A model generated the notes under the pieces. That model saw nothing but the letters and a program-made list of their open reading frames with translations. It was not told the DNA's origin and searched no databases. Below, in pieces: positions 189 through 5,288 of a stretch of DNA of 5,288 bases (positions are counted from its first letter, which is position 1; each line of letters begins with the position of its first letter). The position numbers and the translations under genes are program-made. This stretch comes from Microcaldota archaeon (GTDB lineage: Archaea; Micrarchaeota; Micrarchaeia; Micrarchaeales; CABMGC01). The stretch covers positions 1 to 5,288 of the forward strand of contig JAGWHA010000040.1 in assembly GCA_028867095.1 (NCBI GenBank). Direction: 5' to 3'.

Positions 189-1085
189 ATGGCACACGAT
201 TACAAAAAGCTTGAGGCGATAGGGAAGGGCACCTTCGAGATAATAAACCAGGCAAGGGACATGGTGAAGCCAGGAGTCAGGCTTCTGGATGTTGCAAGGA
301 AGGTGGAGGAACTTGCAAAGAAGAAGAATGTTCAGTTCGCATTCCCGATAAATCTCTCGATAAACGAGAATGCAGCTCATTACACGCCTTCCTTTGAAGA
401 CCCACTTACTTTCTCAGACAAGGATGTTGTGAAAGTGGATATCGGACTGAGAAGTGGGGACAATCTTACGGACTGCGCAGTAACAGTTGATCTATCCGGA
501 AAGTACACAAAGCTCATGCAGGCAACCGAGGAGGCGCTTGACGCCGCGATAAGCGTAGTGAAGGAGGGGAGGAAGGTAGGGGACATCGGAAAGGAGGTTG
601 AAATGGTTGCCAAGAAGTATGGGGTGATGCCGATAAAGAATCTCGGTGGCCATGGAATCGATGAGGGCGAGCTACACGCAAATTATTTCATACCGAATTA
701 CGACAACGGCGATGACACTGAGCTCGTTGAGGGAGACCTGATTGCTGTCGAGGTCTTCCTGACGGACGGGGAGGGATGGGTGAAGAATGGGGAGTACAAC
801 CAGATTTACCAGAAGTCTCCTGGCTATACTCCAAGGACAAATGAGATGCGCGTGATCTCGGAGTTCATCGATGAGAATTACAGCACCTATCCGTTCGCGC
901 TCAGATGGCTTGTTGAGAACTTCAAGTCGGAGTTCAAGGTCAAGGCTGCGCTCAACGAGCTCGCAAGGCAGGAGGCTTTGGAGTCTTTCCCAGTCCTGGT
1001 CGAGAGAAAGAAGGGGACCGTTGTTCAGTTCGAGAAGAGCGTAATAGTCGAAAAGGACTCGTGCAAGATTATAACCAAACCCTAG
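189..1085 (+). CDS. map: Methionine aminopeptidase, type II (archaeal)
   Basis: This cytoplasmic dinuclear-metal enzyme removes the initiator Met from new proteins when the second residue is small. The 298-residue length is normal for archaeal type II MetAP. The pita-bread-fold metal ligands and catalytic His residues are all present at family spacing: H64 (AAHYTPS), D84 (VKVDIG), D95 (NLTDCAVT), H155 (GGHGIDE), H163 (ELHANYFIPN), E188 (AVEVF) and E282 (VQFEKS). The type II insert, a helical segment after the FIDENYSTYPFALRWL stretch, spans about residues 222-270. Two motif variations are seen: the usual AIEPF reads AVEVF, and the usual FEHT reads FEKS; neither removes a metal ligand. The ATG follows the upstream hydrolase stop without a gap, and an AAGGAAG stretch at 178-184 inside that gene can serve as ribosome binding site. 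The 3' end overlaps the convergent small gene by three bases. Confidence 0.96.
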   Translation: MAHDYKKLEAIGKGTFEIINQARDMVKPGVRLLDVARKVEELAKKKNVQFAFPINLSINENAAHYTPSFEDPLTFSDKDVVKVDIGLRSGDNLTDCAVTVDLSGKYTKLMQATEEALDAAISVVKEGRKVGDIGKEVEMVAKKYGVMPIKNLGGHGIDEGELHANYFIPNYDNGDDTELVEGDLIAVEVFLTDGEGWVKNGEYNQIYQKSPGYTPRTNEMRVISEFIDENYSTYPFALRWLVENFKSEFKVKAALNELARQEALESFPVLVERKKGTVVQFEKSVIVEKDSCKIITKP

Positions 1086-1306
1086 GGGACTAAGATCGTC
1101 AACCTGATGCTGGGGTGCTCCTTATTGAACTTCATCACTTTCTGAAACACATCCGAATCATCCCTTATCAGGCCCTCAAGGACCGGTTTGAGGGATACAG
1201 CCCTCTTTATCCCAGTTATGCCTTCAATCTTCGGAAGCTCGCGCAGCGCCGAGCGCAGCACCTCTGCGCTTGTGCAGACTGCCTGGAACTTGTATTCCTG
1301 CGGCAT
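1082..1306 (-). CDS. Unknown small protein (74 aa) downstream of nrdJ
   Basis: I do not recognise this protein. It follows the nrdJ stop by 8 bases on the same strand, and its codon choice resembles its neighbours. It looks soluble, with no signal peptide, membrane span or cysteine cluster (one Cys at residue 11). The pattern suggests a compact alpha/beta fold: strand (about 5-12), helix (13-29), strand (33-40), amphipathic helix (50-63), strand (67-73). Start choice: the ATG at 1306 lies behind AGGT with a 6-base gap and avoids overlap with nrdJ. The frame is open up to an ATG at 1390, with others at 1357 (ATG) and 1324 (GTG), but those versions would run inside the zinc-finger codons of nrdJ. 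Its stop overlaps the stop of map. The position suggests cotranscription with nrdRJ but does not reveal a function. It could be a chance open frame, though its length and tight packing argue for a gene. Confidence 0.6.
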   Translation of the reverse strand: MPQEYKFQAVCTSAEVLRSALRELPKIEGITGIKRAVSLKPVLEGLIRDDSDVFQKVMKFNKEHPSIRLTILVP

Positions 1307-1314
1307 GGGATGAC

Positions 1315-3630
1315 CTATCCGCACCTGCTGTATCCGCAGCTCTGGCAGTGGTCGCATCCGTTCTCGCTCACTAGCGTGTGCTCCGAGCACTTAGGGCAGT
1401 CCATGAGCCCAACCTGCTTGCCATCAGTTGTCTGGGCCTTTACCGTAGCCTGCTTTGGCTTGATGGCCTCCTCGTTTATGACAGCCTGATGGGTCTTGTT
1501 GATCACCGTCTCAAGCGCCTTTGCAATCGCATCAGGCACGCTGAGCAGCTGGACCCCGTGGTCCCATGTCCCGTTTCGCCCCTGGATCCCCTTGAGGCTC
1601 TTGATCACGTTCTTGACGTCCCCTCCCTGCTGCAGGTACATGCTTGCAAGCCTTCCCAGCGCCTCAGTGTAGCTCTTGTCGTCGCTTCCAGATCTTCCCA
1701 TGTTGACGAAAACCTCCCTTGGGCTGCTTGCGTCGCTGTTGACCGTTATGTAGATTGCGCCATTTGGCATCCTGTAGGTGATTGTGTCCCCAGTCATCGT
1801 CTTTGGCCTGGACCACTCCTTTGCCTCAGCCGCTCCCTTTGCCTTCTCGAGCGCCCTCTCCTTCTCATCGGTTATCAAAATTCCCTCTCTTGATCCCTCC
1901 CTGTAGACGGTTATTCCCTTGCATCCCGACTTCCAGCCCTGGAAGTAGATCTTCTCGACCTGCTCGACCGAGACGTCTTCAGGCAGATTGACGGTTGATG
2001 AAATCGAGCTGTCGATGTGCTTTTGCACGACGCTTTGCATCGTAACCCTGAACTCCGGCTTTATCTTGTGGGCTGGAACGAAGAAGTCCGGCAGATCCTC
2101 CTCTCGCTCTATCCTTGACTGCGCCATGTACTGGGCGACAATCGGGTGGTAGACCTTGAAGTACTCCTGCGAGAGGGACTCAGACCTCCTTGTGTAGCTG
2201 AATGCGAAGACAGGCTCGATGCCGCTTGATGTTCCGACCAGCGCCGATCCGCTGCCGACTGGGGCGATAGTCAGTATCGCGACATTGCGCAGCCCATTCC
2301 TCTTGATCTTCTCCCTGATATCGGATGAGAGGCCCTGTATGAAAGGCATGGTGAGGTGCTTGTCCGCATCGAATAGGCCAAACGATCCCTTCTCCTTTGC
2401 GATCTCGGTGGATTCATCATATGCGATGTACTTCATCTTGTCCATGAGCTTGTCCACAAAGTCGAGCGCCGCCTGGGTGTCGTACTTTATCTTGAGCCTA
2501 ATTAGCATGTCAGCAAGCCCCGTGAAGCCAAGCCCTATCCTTCGACTTTCCCTGCTCGCCTGCGCCTGCTCAGGGAGCGGGTGCTTGTCCATGTTGTAAG
2601 TGAGAACGTTGTCTAGGAACCTAACTCCGTACCTAATCGCCTTCTCAAGCGTCGGCCAATCAATCTCTGCCTGATCGGTGTAGCTGCCTGTGACGAACAT
2701 CGGCAGGTTCACATGCCCCAAATCGCATGCGCCGTATGCCTGAAGCGGCTGCTCTGCGCATGGGTTGGTCGTTATGACATTCATCCCATTGTACTCGCTA
2801 GGGGAGCCTCTCACCACATTGTCCCAGAAGATGAGTCCTGGCTCGGCCCAGTCCCTTGCGCTGCTGATTATCTCATTCCAAAGATCCCTTGCCCGAACCT
2901 TCTTCTCAAACCTTCCCGTCTTTGGGCTGTCATACCATAGCGTGAAATCAGTGTCCTTCTCCACCGCATGCATGAACTCGTCTGTTATTCGCAGGCTGAT
3001 GTTTGCGTACCTGACACTTCGCAGGTTCCGCTTAACCCTGATGAAGTCAAGGACGTCAGGGTGGTCGACACGGATTGTGATCATGAGTGCCCCCCTTCTT
3101 CCTGCCTGCCCAATTGTCCCTGTGGTTTCGCTCATTATGTTCATGAACGAGACAGCGCCAGTTGAATGAAGTGCTGAGTTGTTGACCTTTGTCCCCCTTG
3201 GCCTGAGAATGCTTATGTCCCCGCCGACCCCTCCCCCGAAGCTATACGTCCTTGCGGCCTCCTTGCACCAATCGAAAATAGACTCGATAGAGTCCGCCTT
3301 CATAGGGATCACGTAGCAGTTTAGCAGAGTTGTCTTCTTTGTCTGACCTGCTCCAAACAGTATCCTTCCTCCGGGCACGAACTTGAAGTTCTCAAGAAGC
3401 CAGTAGAAGTTGTTTGACCACTCCTTTTGCTTTTCCGGGGTTTCCTCTGCGCTTGCCATTGCAGTTGAGACCCTTTTCCACATCTCTGGAGGGGTCTTCT
3501 CAATCTTGTCGCCGTTCTCGTTTCTCAAGGTATACTTTTCGTAGAATACGCGGGCCCTAAGCTCGTCCCTGTCAAAAAAATCCAGTGTTTCCGTTGGAAT
3601 TGCGATTTGTTCGGTTTTTTGTTCTTCCAT
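1315..3630 (-). CDS. nrdJ: Adenosylcobalamin-dependent ribonucleotide reductase, class II
   Basis: The enzyme reduces ribonucleotides to deoxyribonucleotides by thiyl-radical chemistry started from adenosylcobalamin, so it needs no oxygen and no separate radical subunit. It has 771 residues. Active-site residues fit the family: C105 (LLNCYVIP) and C302 (GACDLGHVNLP) as the redox pair, with N289, thiyl C291 and E293 in NPCAE; C291 and C302 are 11 apart, as in Thermotoga NrdJ. A glycine-rich FGGGVGGDISILRPRG segment (131-146) and APVGSGS-GTSSGIEPVF (456-475) are further signatures. A TSCPD-type domain occupies about 610-700. The tail is a Cys-rich finger, CPKC (745-748), CDHC (759-762), C765 and C770, a zinc-binding/re-reduction tail typical of the family. 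No N-terminal ATP-cone is visible: the KKDG-type motif is missing and the barrel region starts early. The ATG is preceded by GGGGGT and lies 16 bases after the nrdR stop. Confidence 0.97.
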   Translation of the reverse strand: MEEQKTEQIAIPTETLDFFDRDELRARVFYEKYTLRNENGDKIEKTPPEMWKRVSTAMASAEETPEKQKEWSNNFYWLLENFKFVPGGRILFGAGQTKKTTLLNCYVIPMKADSIESIFDWCKEAARTYSFGGGVGGDISILRPRGTKVNNSALHSTGAVSFMNIMSETTGTIGQAGRRGALMITIRVDHPDVLDFIRVKRNLRSVRYANISLRITDEFMHAVEKDTDFTLWYDSPKTGRFEKKVRARDLWNEIISSARDWAEPGLIFWDNVVRGSPSEYNGMNVITTNPCAEQPLQAYGACDLGHVNLPMFVTGSYTDQAEIDWPTLEKAIRYGVRFLDNVLTYNMDKHPLPEQAQASRESRRIGLGFTGLADMLIRLKIKYDTQAALDFVDKLMDKMKYIAYDESTEIAKEKGSFGLFDADKHLTMPFIQGLSSDIREKIKRNGLRNVAILTIAPVGSGSALVGTSSGIEPVFAFSYTRRSESLSQEYFKVYHPIVAQYMAQSRIEREEDLPDFFVPAHKIKPEFRVTMQSVVQKHIDSSISSTVNLPEDVSVEQVEKIYFQGWKSGCKGITVYREGSREGILITDEKERALEKAKGAAEAKEWSRPKTMTGDTITYRMPNGAIYITVNSDASSPREVFVNMGRSGSDDKSYTEALGRLASMYLQQGGDVKNVIKSLKGIQGRNGTWDHGVQLLSVPDAIAKALETVINKTHQAVINEEAIKPKQATVKAQTTDGKQVGLMDCPKCSEHTLVSENGCDHCQSCGYSRCG

Positions 3631-3646: not shown

Positions 3647-4117
3647 TCATTTCTCCATCTGCTCCTTCTTCTTGTTGAAGACAGTTATGATCTTCATGAA
3701 CTCCTTTGTGGAGTTGAATGTGTTGTAAACGCTGGCAAAGCGCACATAGGCCACCGTGTCGAGCTTGAAGAGCTCTCTTATCACCATTTCGCCTATCTTC
3801 TTTGTTGTTATCTCCTTGACCCCCTTTGCGCGGATCTTGCGGTCTATCTTGTCAGAGATGTCAATTATCGCCTCCTGGTTGACTGGGCGCTTCTCGCACG
3901 CCTTTGTTATCCCGTTTAGTATCTTTGCCTTGTCGTACGGCTGCCTTGTCCCGTCCTTCTTTATCACGATAAGCTCGACGAGGTCCGCCTTCTCGTAGGT
4001 GGTGAATCGCTTCTGGCAGGAGTTGCAGAGCCTTCGGCGCCTCACGCTGTTTTCCTCCTCGACGTCTCGAGAGTCGACTACACAAATGTCAGAGGAAAGG
4101 CAGTACGGGCAGCGCAT
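3647..4117 (-). CDS. nrdR: Transcriptional repressor NrdR
   Basis: NrdR binds ATP/dATP in an ATP-cone and represses ribonucleotide reductase genes when dNTP levels are high. The 156-residue protein has the standard layout. An N-terminal zinc ribbon carries C3, C6 (MRCPYC) and C31, C34 (LCNSCQKRFTTYE), with the basic RRRR patch (26-29) used for DNA binding. The ATP-cone spans about 46-139, from VIKKDGTRQPYDKAKI to DTVAYVRFASVYNTF. The frame is open for 14 more codons upstream to an ATG at 4159. The ATG at 4117 is chosen because the family begins MRCP(F/Y)C and because the extra codons would read through the operator palindrome. Only a weak GTGG precedes the ATG. nrdJ follows after 16 bases, so its likely target is its own operon. 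NrdR is overwhelmingly bacterial and only sporadic in archaea, so horizontal acquisition is likely (inference). Confidence 0.95.
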   Translation of the reverse strand: MRCPYCLSSDICVVDSRDVEEENSVRRRRLCNSCQKRFTTYEKADLVELIVIKKDGTRQPYDKAKILNGITKACEKRPVNQEAIIDISDKIDRKIRAKGVKEITTKKIGEMVIRELFKLDTVAYVRFASVYNTFNSTKEFMKIITVFNKKKEQMEK

Positions 4118-4121
4118 AAAA

Positions 4122-4137
4122 CCACAATATATGGTAT
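4122..4137 (-). promoter_or_regulatory. Putative NrdR box 1 (proximal operator)
   Basis: The plus strand reads CCACAATATATGGTAT. Against the bacterial NrdR-box consensus recalled from comparative genomics (ACACWATATATWGTGT), 13 of 16 positions match by hand count, including the whole ATATAT core. It ends 4 bases before the nrdR ATG. It also overlaps a perfect 10-base palindrome, TGGTATACCA (4132-4141). Binding by NrdR is inferred, not shown. Confidence 0.7.
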
Positions 4138-4153
4138 ACCACCCTCGCAACAG

Positions 4154-4169
4154 ATACAAGATGTTGTGG
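4154..4169 (-). promoter_or_regulatory. Putative NrdR box 2 (distal operator)
   Basis: The plus strand reads ATACAAGATGTTGTGG, which matches the same NrdR-box consensus at 12 of 16 positions by hand count. Its start is 32 bases from that of box 1, leaving a 16-base linker, so both sites face the same side of the helix. This tandem spacing is characteristic of bacterial NrdR operators. It is followed by GGATACCA (4168-4175), echoing the GGTATACCA after box 1. Confidence 0.6.
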
Positions 4170-4194
4170 ATACCAGTTAGACTTTAGACTGGGG

Positions 4195-4203
4195 ATTTAA
4201 ATA
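4195..4203 (-). promoter_or_regulatory. Putative archaeal TATA element for nrdR-nrdJ
   Basis: The minus strand reads TATTTAAAT within GGGTATTTAAATCCCC, about 80 bases upstream of nrdR. An archaeal TATA box is centred about 25 bases before the start site, which predicts transcription from about 4171-4174. Both NrdR boxes would then lie just downstream of the start and act as a roadblock. The core is nearly palindromic, so its orientation is not fixed by sequence, and no convincing BRE is visible; the flanking genes argue for the minus strand. Confidence 0.45.
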
Positions 4204-4300: not shown

Positions 4301-4355
4301 CAGGAAATTCGAATGTGATGGTTCAATCTCCCTGGAATATCTTTATGCTAACGGG

Positions 4356-5051
4356 TTACTCGACGAACTCCGAGATCCTAAGCTGCCTGATCCCAGTCAT
4401 CGTCTTCCAGTACTCCCGGATGTATGGGAGCAGGTTCTTGTTGCCAAGGTTCTGCTTTATCATGGAGATTGTCTGCTTGTCTGAAGCGTAGCCAGAGCCA
4501 AAGTCTATCCCCAGCTCCTGGGAGATCTTTTCCATCTCCCTGTCCCTTGTCACCTTTGCGATTATGCTTGCCGCGGATACCACTGGGTACTTGAGGTCCG
4601 CCTTGTGCTCAGAGACCACCCTTATCGAGTTCTCCTTCCTTGGGCCCTTCTTTGCGCCCTGCACCTTCATCGGCTTCTTTGAGAGGACGCTTATCCTGAT
4701 CCCGAACCTTTCCGGTATGACATCTGGCGAGTCAAGGTAGATTGCGTCAACCTCGCCGAGGGAATCGATGAGCCTGGAGACGCAGATTGCCTCGAGCTCG
4801 TTTAGCGAGATGTTGCTTCGCATCGCGTTGTTAATCTCAAGCGGAGAGATTGGGTAGCTCTTGACCTCCTCGGCAAGGGACTGTATCTCCTCAAAGAGGA
4901 ACTCCCTCTTCCTCGGAGTGAGGAGCTTTGAGTCCCTCACCCCTATCTTTGAGAGTTTGGCGGCGCGGCCGGAGGTCATGCTAACTACCCCTATAACAAG
5001 AGGACCGATAACAGCCCCGCGGCCGGCCTCGTCGCCGCCAGCTATTATGAT
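4356..5051 (-). CDS. rnhB: Ribonuclease HII, apparent non-AUG start
   Basis: RNase HII cuts the RNA strand of RNA-DNA hybrids and starts removal of ribonucleotides misincorporated in DNA. Read from ATC at 5051 the protein has 231 residues. The four catalytic acids are present: D7 and E8 (GGDEAGRG), D107 (AIYLDSP) and D152 (EHKADLKYPVVSAASIIAK). RDSK (about 39-42) and GSGYASD (185-191) are further signatures. D7/E8 match the numbering of archaeal RNase HII enzymes. The first ATG (4979) is 24 codons inside and would remove DEAGRG. An in-frame TAG lies at 5054-5052; between it and that ATG no ATG, GTG or TTG occurs in frame. The possible starts are therefore ATC (5051), ATA (5048) or ATA (5045), directly behind GGTGAT. 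The family's MIIAG-type beginning aligns best with ATC as residue 1, so ATC may be a real start or a G-to-C change or error. The PRC-barrel gene ends 12 bases upstream. Confidence 0.9.
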   Translation of the reverse strand: MIIAGGDEAGRGAVIGPLVIGVVSMTSGRAAKLSKIGVRDSKLLTPRKREFLFEEIQSLAEEVKSYPISPLEINNAMRSNISLNELEAICVSRLIDSLGEVDAIYLDSPDVIPERFGIRISVLSKKPMKVQGAKKGPRKENSIRVVSEHKADLKYPVVSAASIIAKVTRDREMEKISQELGIDFGSGYASDKQTISMIKQNLGNKNLLPYIREYWKTMTGIRQLRISEFVE

Positions 5052-5054
5052 CTA

Positions 5055-5063: not shown

Positions 5064-5288
5064 TTAAAGTGCCTTCCTATCTATTACAATGAAGTCGTTG
5101 ACTGCAACTACCGCATTGTACCCTAGCTTCAGCTTCCCCTCCTTCACGTCAAGCTTGTTGACAAATGCGCTGTCTACGTTGGGTTCTACAAGTAGAGTCG
5201 TCAATTTTCCTGTGACTTCGTTGATTTCAGCGTCGACGAATTTGCCTAAGTCAAAACCATCGTTGGTCACCACTTCTTTTCCTACAAG
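5064..5288 (-). CDS. PRC-barrel domain protein (5' truncated by window)
   Basis: The last 74 codons are visible, in frame to the window edge. They read as one PRC-barrel: LVGKEVVTNDGFDLGKFVDAE, then EVTGKLTTLLVEP, and a C-terminal VNDFIVIDRKAL strand. This matches short archaeal stand-alone PRC-barrel proteins of roughly 75-90 residues. A GTG at 5273 could be read as start, but LVGKEV before it is the conserved first strand of the domain, so the true start is expected just outside the window. PRC-barrels are small beta domains found in photosynthetic reaction centre subunit H and in RimM, and archaeal stand-alone copies have no firmly assigned role; some are linked to RNA metabolism or cell division. 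It ends 12 bases before the rnhB start, suggesting cotranscription. There is no membrane segment in the visible part. Confidence 0.85.
   Translation of the reverse strand, partial: LVGKEVVTNDGFDLGKFVDAEINEVTGKLTTLLVEPNVDSAFVNKLDVKEGKLKLGYNAVVAVNDFIVIDRKAL

Follow-up and report, generated by a model that had tools for sequence, protein, structure and literature searches.

The stretch of DNA analysed here (5,288 nucleotides, hereafter the window) carries a gene for the repressor NrdR, followed after a gap of 16 bp by nrdJ, which encodes a class II ribonucleotide reductase (RNR), and the two genes very likely form one operon. A Pfam search found no match to the ATP-cone (PF03477) in the window NrdJ. 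All features are collected in Table 1. Three pieces of the window align with Candidatus Micrarchaeota archaeon REEA49 (contig JAGWGN010000007.1) at 88-93% nucleotide identity, and the NrdR proteins of the two are identical, which together mark the window as a sister lineage of REEA49. The corresponding REEA49 locus (L001) has about 670 extra bp close to where rnhB ends, on the upstream side of the nrdR promoter (window 4314-4374), and about 1.2 kb extra between nrdJ and the aminopeptidase gene (window 1049-1316). The RNase HII gene shows no ATG, GTG or TTG at its expected start (window 4979-5054); an in-frame TAG at 5054-5052 is followed by ATC ATA ATA and then by codons for AGGDEAGRG, so that a rare start codon or some other explanation is needed.

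Table 1. Genes and regulatory features of the window, and positions of related features in other loci
Feature	Position	Strand	Remarks
Type II methionyl aminopeptidase	189-1085	+	
nrdJ, class II ribonucleotide reductase	1315..3630	-	771 aa; TIGR02504 547.7 bits; PF02867, PF00317, PF12637
nrdR	3647..4117	-	156 aa; Zn-ribbon + ATP-cone; TIGR00244, PF22811, PF03477
Proximal NrdR box ATACCATATATTGTGG	4122..4137	-	13/16; best 16-mer of the window
16-bp spacer between boxes	4138..4153	-	8/16 columns invariant in six-sequence alignment
Distal NrdR box CCACAACATCTTGTAT	4154..4169	-	12/16; second-best 16-mer of the window
Inferred transcription start zone	4169..4173	-	about 26 bp after TATA centre
Archaeal TATA box TTTAAATC	4194..4201	-	7/8 to TTTAWATA; starts 32 bp upstream of distal box
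RNase HII gene (rnhB)	about 5051 to 4356	-	
PRC-barrel fragment	5064-5288	-	
NrdR-fusion reading frames	L160:2846-5476, L192:231-2855, L175:278-2728, L131:2543-4201, L197:2543-3877, L163:2487-3425		
B12-domain loci with box pair	L373, L374, L377, L378, L383, L386, L390		upstream of L371:2276-4447 homologues

When the window was scored against the published NrdR-box consensus acaCwAtATaTwGtgt, a bacterial consensus applied here to an archaeal host, its two best 16-mers proved to be the boxes that the original prediction had placed in front of nrdR at 13/16 and 12/16 matches, with starts 32 bases apart and a linker of 16 bases; the next-best 16-mer on either strand of the 5288 bases reaches 10/16. 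The nrdR ATG is at 4117-4115, so the boxes occupy the stretch 5-52 bp ahead of it, and the operator directly precedes nrdR-nrdJ. Scoring against shuffled sequence, proposed as a check of the prediction, bore it out: with the 238 bp between the genes shuffled at the dinucleotide level, the pair sum of 25 was reached in 0/3000 rounds in all four tests (C4/G13 required or not; spacing 32 alone or 31-33), which rules out a chance match for the pair. In both boxes position 4 is C and position 13 is G, the pairs whose inversion, according to passages of PMC9110341, cuts binding by Streptomyces coelicolor NrdR about 50-fold or more. The claim that the tandem operator is correctly phased likewise stands, since its two C4/G13 palindromes are separated by 16 bp and portions of PMC12051234 describe good NrdR binding with spacers of 14-17 bp, within a spacing rule that also allows 24-27 bp.

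A genome-contig scan returned 28 loci, 10 of them from Micrarchaeota. The original prediction had named as adverse evidence a failure of orthologous intergenic regions to conserve the two palindromes or their 32-base phasing; this was not seen, as both boxes are kept at 32 bp in 5/5 of the closest Micrarchaeota loci (L001-L005, NrdR identity 78-100%). When these five were aligned with the window, 13/16 columns of the proximal box and 11/16 of the distal box were invariant across the six sequences, while the flanks diverge, with 2/26 invariant columns between TATA box and operator and 2/24 further upstream. The spacer half next to the proximal box (4138-4145) is invariant in 6/8 columns of the same alignment. 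The remaining five Micrarchaeota loci (L006-L010, NrdR identity 55-58%) have no boxes upstream of nrdR and carry a box pair upstream of nrdJ instead.

Upstream of the operator lies a promoter of archaeal type. We collected 75 distinct archaeal operators; 74 of them extended far enough upstream to be scored, and collapsing similar ones left 69. The motif TTTAWA begins within the 4-50 bp ahead of the distal box in 54/69 (mean 8.9 and maximum 15 over 50 rounds of shuffling), and a longer form, TTTAWAWA, precedes the distal box in 44/69 (shuffled mean 2.3, maximum 7); the TATA box of the window is counted among the former only. Archaeal transcription usually starts about 26 bp from the TATA centre, and at this distance the start in the window would fall near 4171, just before the distal box, with the operator covering about +3 to +50 of a predicted 54-nt leader. 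Among the other archaeal operators the distance from the TATA start to the distal box ranges from 5 to 38 bp and seldom exceeds this, which means that the exact overlap of operator and start varies. In the set of 69, TATA starts cluster near -33, -24, -16 and -6 from the distal box, a pattern that relatedness of the genomes may explain. Helical phasing of TATA box and operator is unproven: the best period was 9.1 bp (z 11.2), and the expected 10.5 bp gave a z of 3.5 that dropped to 1.4 under stricter collapsing.

These positions bear on two other ways of reading the palindromes. The proximal box is AT-rich and contains CATATAT, and could conceivably itself be the TATA box of nrdR, with the distal box a chance match. 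However, it occupies positions 5-20 bp ahead of the ATG, and a start some 26 bp further on would already be within nrdR; a separate TTTAAAT is present at 4195-4201; and the 32-bp pair, preserved in five relatives, tracks NrdR, while the TATA-to-operator distance varies. We therefore regard a TATA function of the proximal box as highly improbable. We give even less credence to the idea that the palindromes act on translation or termination as leader-RNA hairpins and not as DNA sites, which would fit their place within the predicted 54-nt leader and the conservation of half of the spacer. The sequences fit a consensus of DNA contacts, with the two G-C pairs present in each box, and their presence tracks a DNA-binding protein, NrdR; moreover, other genomes have as little as 5-7 bp from the TATA start to the distal box, such that the distal box there would lie upstream of the start and remain untranscribed.

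Across genomes, the boxes follow the presence of NrdR. Of 295 genomes sampled from the REEA49 phylum, 134 had the NrdR Zn-ribbon over the cut-off and 246 had PF02867 reductases. Scanning upstream of archaeal nrdR genes with 200 shuffles per region, we found a tandem pair at p<=0.01 in 41 of the 140 scored regions (the 140 are loci, with G006, G007 and G008 each entering twice); the 99 regions failing this threshold include some, such as L006-L010, in which nrdR is not the head of an operon. The regions upstream of nrdJ or related reductases were compared among genomes in the matches listed of the 246 with PF02867. Here a pair (p<=0.01, score>=20) precedes the gene in 25/49 regions from genomes with NrdR vs 1/52 from genomes without it. 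Where the reductase is at least 50% identical to the window NrdJ, the counts are 20/21 vs 1/19, and below 50% identity they are 5/28 vs 0/33; accordingly, 23 of the 24/49 regions that lack a pair despite NrdR fall under 50% NrdJ identity. Kinship among the genomes makes p-values such as the 4.6e-9 obtained for pair vs NrdR too small. The sole miss at >=50% identity in a genome with NrdR, L203, is near a contig end. The sole locus with a pair in a genome lacking detectable NrdR is L230 (G058), where an operator close to that of L036 stands before nrdJ; the bacterial profile R1 described below has no match in G058, whose NrdR gene may be missing from an incomplete assembly. Boxes are also found before nrdJ where nrdR does not head the nrdJ operon. 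Since the boxes follow the reductase operon, their target would be reductase transcription rather than nrdR alone.

The original prediction had further proposed that a matrix built from known boxes be applied to the region. Three bacterial groups provided 90 nrdJ loci, 89 of which were scored, and a tandem pair at p<=0.01 and score>=20 was present upstream of nrdJ in only 25/89, indicating that the pair-scan method is not very sensitive. The 14 of these 25 operators with a 32-bp phase formed a sequence-only profile, R1. In G001-G005, which were scored in full, R1 picked the nrdR operator as the sole match in the genome at E<=10 (E 2.5e-4 to 1.2e-3), and it did so on both strands because the operator is palindromic; in larger genomes the first 150 candidates were scored. 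Among 22 genomes with NrdR, R1 found a match in 18, in 17 of them ahead of nrdR or of a gene for a reductase, and had its best match at such a site in 15, with no match in the other 4; these genomes had been preselected, 21 by a pair from the consensus scan and G012 by a single strong box, so that the profile and its genome-wide ranking are independent of the consensus scan and the choice of genomes is not. Of 22 genomes without detected NrdR, two gave an R1 match (best E 0.096). The correlation of 0.94 (r) between archaeal and bacterial box matrices is partly built in, both sets having been picked with the same consensus.

Away from the RNR genes, R1 has its sole match in G076 and its best match in G034 and G146. 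Nine extra matches were examined. Those in G271 (C46, C48), G126 (C27), G172 (C8) and G284 (C6) have no clear pair at 31-33 bp and were set aside; one good single box each was seen in G271 C48 and G284 C6. The match in G034 C30 was rejected as an operator, being a weak pair (9/16, 12/16) inside a reading frame. A pair of 12/16 and 14/16 boxes, 32 bp apart, occurs in one genome before a gene for a uridine kinase-CYTH fusion (L364:2061-2108, G034:C13), and with R1 this pair outscores the nrdR operator of G034 itself.

A further candidate target emerged from marginal R1 matches (E 0.08 and 0.18), which led to a gene with a B12-binding domain of the methylmalonyl-CoA-mutase type. A tandem pair (score 21-23, p<=0.015) precedes this gene in 7/18 scored loci (Table 1), and in 0/3 of the loci from genomes lacking NrdR, which suggests that NrdR may also control a cobalamin-related gene. 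By eye, a TATA-like stretch can be seen upstream of the box pairs of the B12-domain genes.

In 6/138 nrdR loci of the phylum, the reading frame that begins at the NrdR start exceeds 260 aa (Table 1). Pfam recognizes a Zn-ribbon and two ATP-cones in all six of these fusions and NRDD, the domain of the class III reductase NrdD, in five; contig ends cut off L163 ahead of NRDD and L131 inside it, and an in-frame stop interrupts NRDD in L197. A tandem pair (p<=0.002, spacing 30-33) lies upstream of 5/6. Zn_ribbon_NrdR, ATP-cone and NRDD occur together in at least 21 proteins among the 120 matches listed for the first 400 residues of L160, and some of these may be the products of the six fusion genes. 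P0124, a public protein of 730 aa that agrees with 64% of the L160 query at 100% identity and is encoded on a contig as long as that of L160, seems to be the L160 gene annotated without its NrdR part. The portions of PMC9110341, PMC5794259 and PMC11226230 that we consulted make no mention of an NrdR-NrdD fusion.

The NrdR protein of the window is a full-length NrdR equivalog. It scores 176.4 bits against TIGR00244 (cut-off 124.65), exceeds the cut-offs of PF22811 and PF03477 and matches five NrdR sequences of the PDB at E 3e-37 to 9e-37. It retains both CxxC pairs as well as D15, R17, R26-R29 and R37, which according to passages of PMC9110341 are among the DNA contacts of S. coelicolor NrdR and which are kept in at least 128/131 rows of the phylum; R12 of the S. 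coelicolor protein corresponds to C12 in the window, and position 12 is not conserved in the phylum. With a tandem operator and an intact NrdR side by side, nrdR-nrdJ is probably autoregulated, as had been proposed for nrdR.

How the system came to be in this phylum is a separate question. In a quick NrdR tree of 96 rows (69 from the phylum, 24 bacterial and 3 other archaeal, picked from 174 by similarity), the window NrdR falls into a set of 31 rows from its own phylum alone, with an SH-aLRT of 96; 50/93 inner branches of the tree are under 80, and the phylum rows as a whole need 4 changes. Membership in the phylum-only set indicates that the NrdR system is old in the phylum, and if it is of bacterial origin, its acquisition happened long ago. 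Of the earlier suggestion that the whole regulatory module had been transferred, the operator, its phasing and the adjoining NrdR hold up, whereas transfer finds little backing in the wide occurrence of NrdR and the phylum-only set. That the lineage recently acquired a bacterial nrdR-operator-nrdJ package as a whole might be favored by the description of NrdR boxes as bacterial (in passages of PMC4009431) and by published transfers of haloarchaeal class I RNRs with an adjoining nrdR (as related in parts of PMC3019208). We nevertheless deem it very unlikely, given the NrdR Zn-ribbon in 134/295 genomes of the phylum, the well-supported 31-row set and a promoter that is archaeal in type.

The boxes, their phase and conservation, the link to NrdR, the TATA box and the DNA-contact residues can all be read from the sequence, and from them we infer NrdR binding, its dependence on dATP, the start site and repression. 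Judged on the sequence, it is highly probable that a dATP-sensing NrdR repressor uses the boxes as its operator and controls nrdR and the downstream class II reductase. The proposed mechanism, drawn by analogy with S. coelicolor and E. coli NrdR as portrayed in parts of PMC9110341 and PMC12176259, is as follows. Upon a rise in dATP, an NrdR tetramer loaded with ATP and dATP would bind both boxes, placing one pair of Zn-ribbons on each box, the boxes being about three helix turns apart. Once bound, the tetramer would introduce a kink at the start region and obstruct polymerase; given that the operator of the window begins at or just past the start predicted from the TATA box, RNA polymerase should be stopped during initiation or in early elongation. 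At high dATP nrdR and nrdJ would thus fall silent, and when dATP falls NrdR would be released and nrdR-nrdJ made again. Because NrdJ shows no ATP-cone, NrdR would be its main dATP brake.

Compared with known systems, the window is closest in gene order to nrdRJ of S. coelicolor within the bacterial NrdR regulon (nrdR-nrdJ). It shares with bacterial NrdR the Zn-ribbon/ATP-cone protein and its contact residues except R12, and with bacterial operators the 16-bp palindrome with C4/G13, the tandem arrangement, the 15-16 bp spacer and the autoregulatory position. Unlike bacterial operators, that of the window would lie at and beyond the predicted start, with a TATA box upstream of it. Bacterial NrdR boxes overlap the polymerase site (passages of PMC12176259), and of 25 bacterial operators scanned, 20 have a sigma-70-like match (>=8/12), which in 8/20 puts the -35 element at -8 to -5 and the -10 element at +15 to +18, inside the spacer, and in the other 12 is placed otherwise. 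Archaea and bacteria would appear to use the same operator with different core promoters. The haloarchaeal nrdR-nrdBA and nrdR-nrdAB clusters, as presented in parts of PMC3019208, resemble the window in having nrdR beside the RNR genes and differ in encoding a class I reductase that was published as acquired from bacteria; that account, in the same parts, does not mention boxes. Passages of PMC9110341 and PMC12176259 call NrdR rare in archaea, and in the open-licence literature we found no paper on NrdR in Micrarchaeota or DPANN.

On a broader reading we are evenly divided. NrdR control would be native to Micrarchaeota and long established there, with a bacterial operator refitted to archaeal TATA promoters such that it occludes the start and with a regulon that reaches the B12-domain gene; in some lineages the repressor would have been fused to NrdD, so that the enzyme bears its own gene's repressor and could, through two ATP-cones in one chain, shut down its activity as well as its transcription.

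Taken together, and contrary to a review that describes NrdR boxes as absent in archaea (in passages of PMC4009431), we find that NrdR boxes recur in archaea, tied to NrdR and set on promoters of archaeal type. This makes it testable how a repressor known from bacteria represses a promoter served by TBP, TFB and an archaeal polymerase. It would also provide an archaeal reductase that has no ATP-cone with a transcriptional dATP brake, and in the fused NrdR-NrdD genes enzyme and repressor would come together in one molecule.
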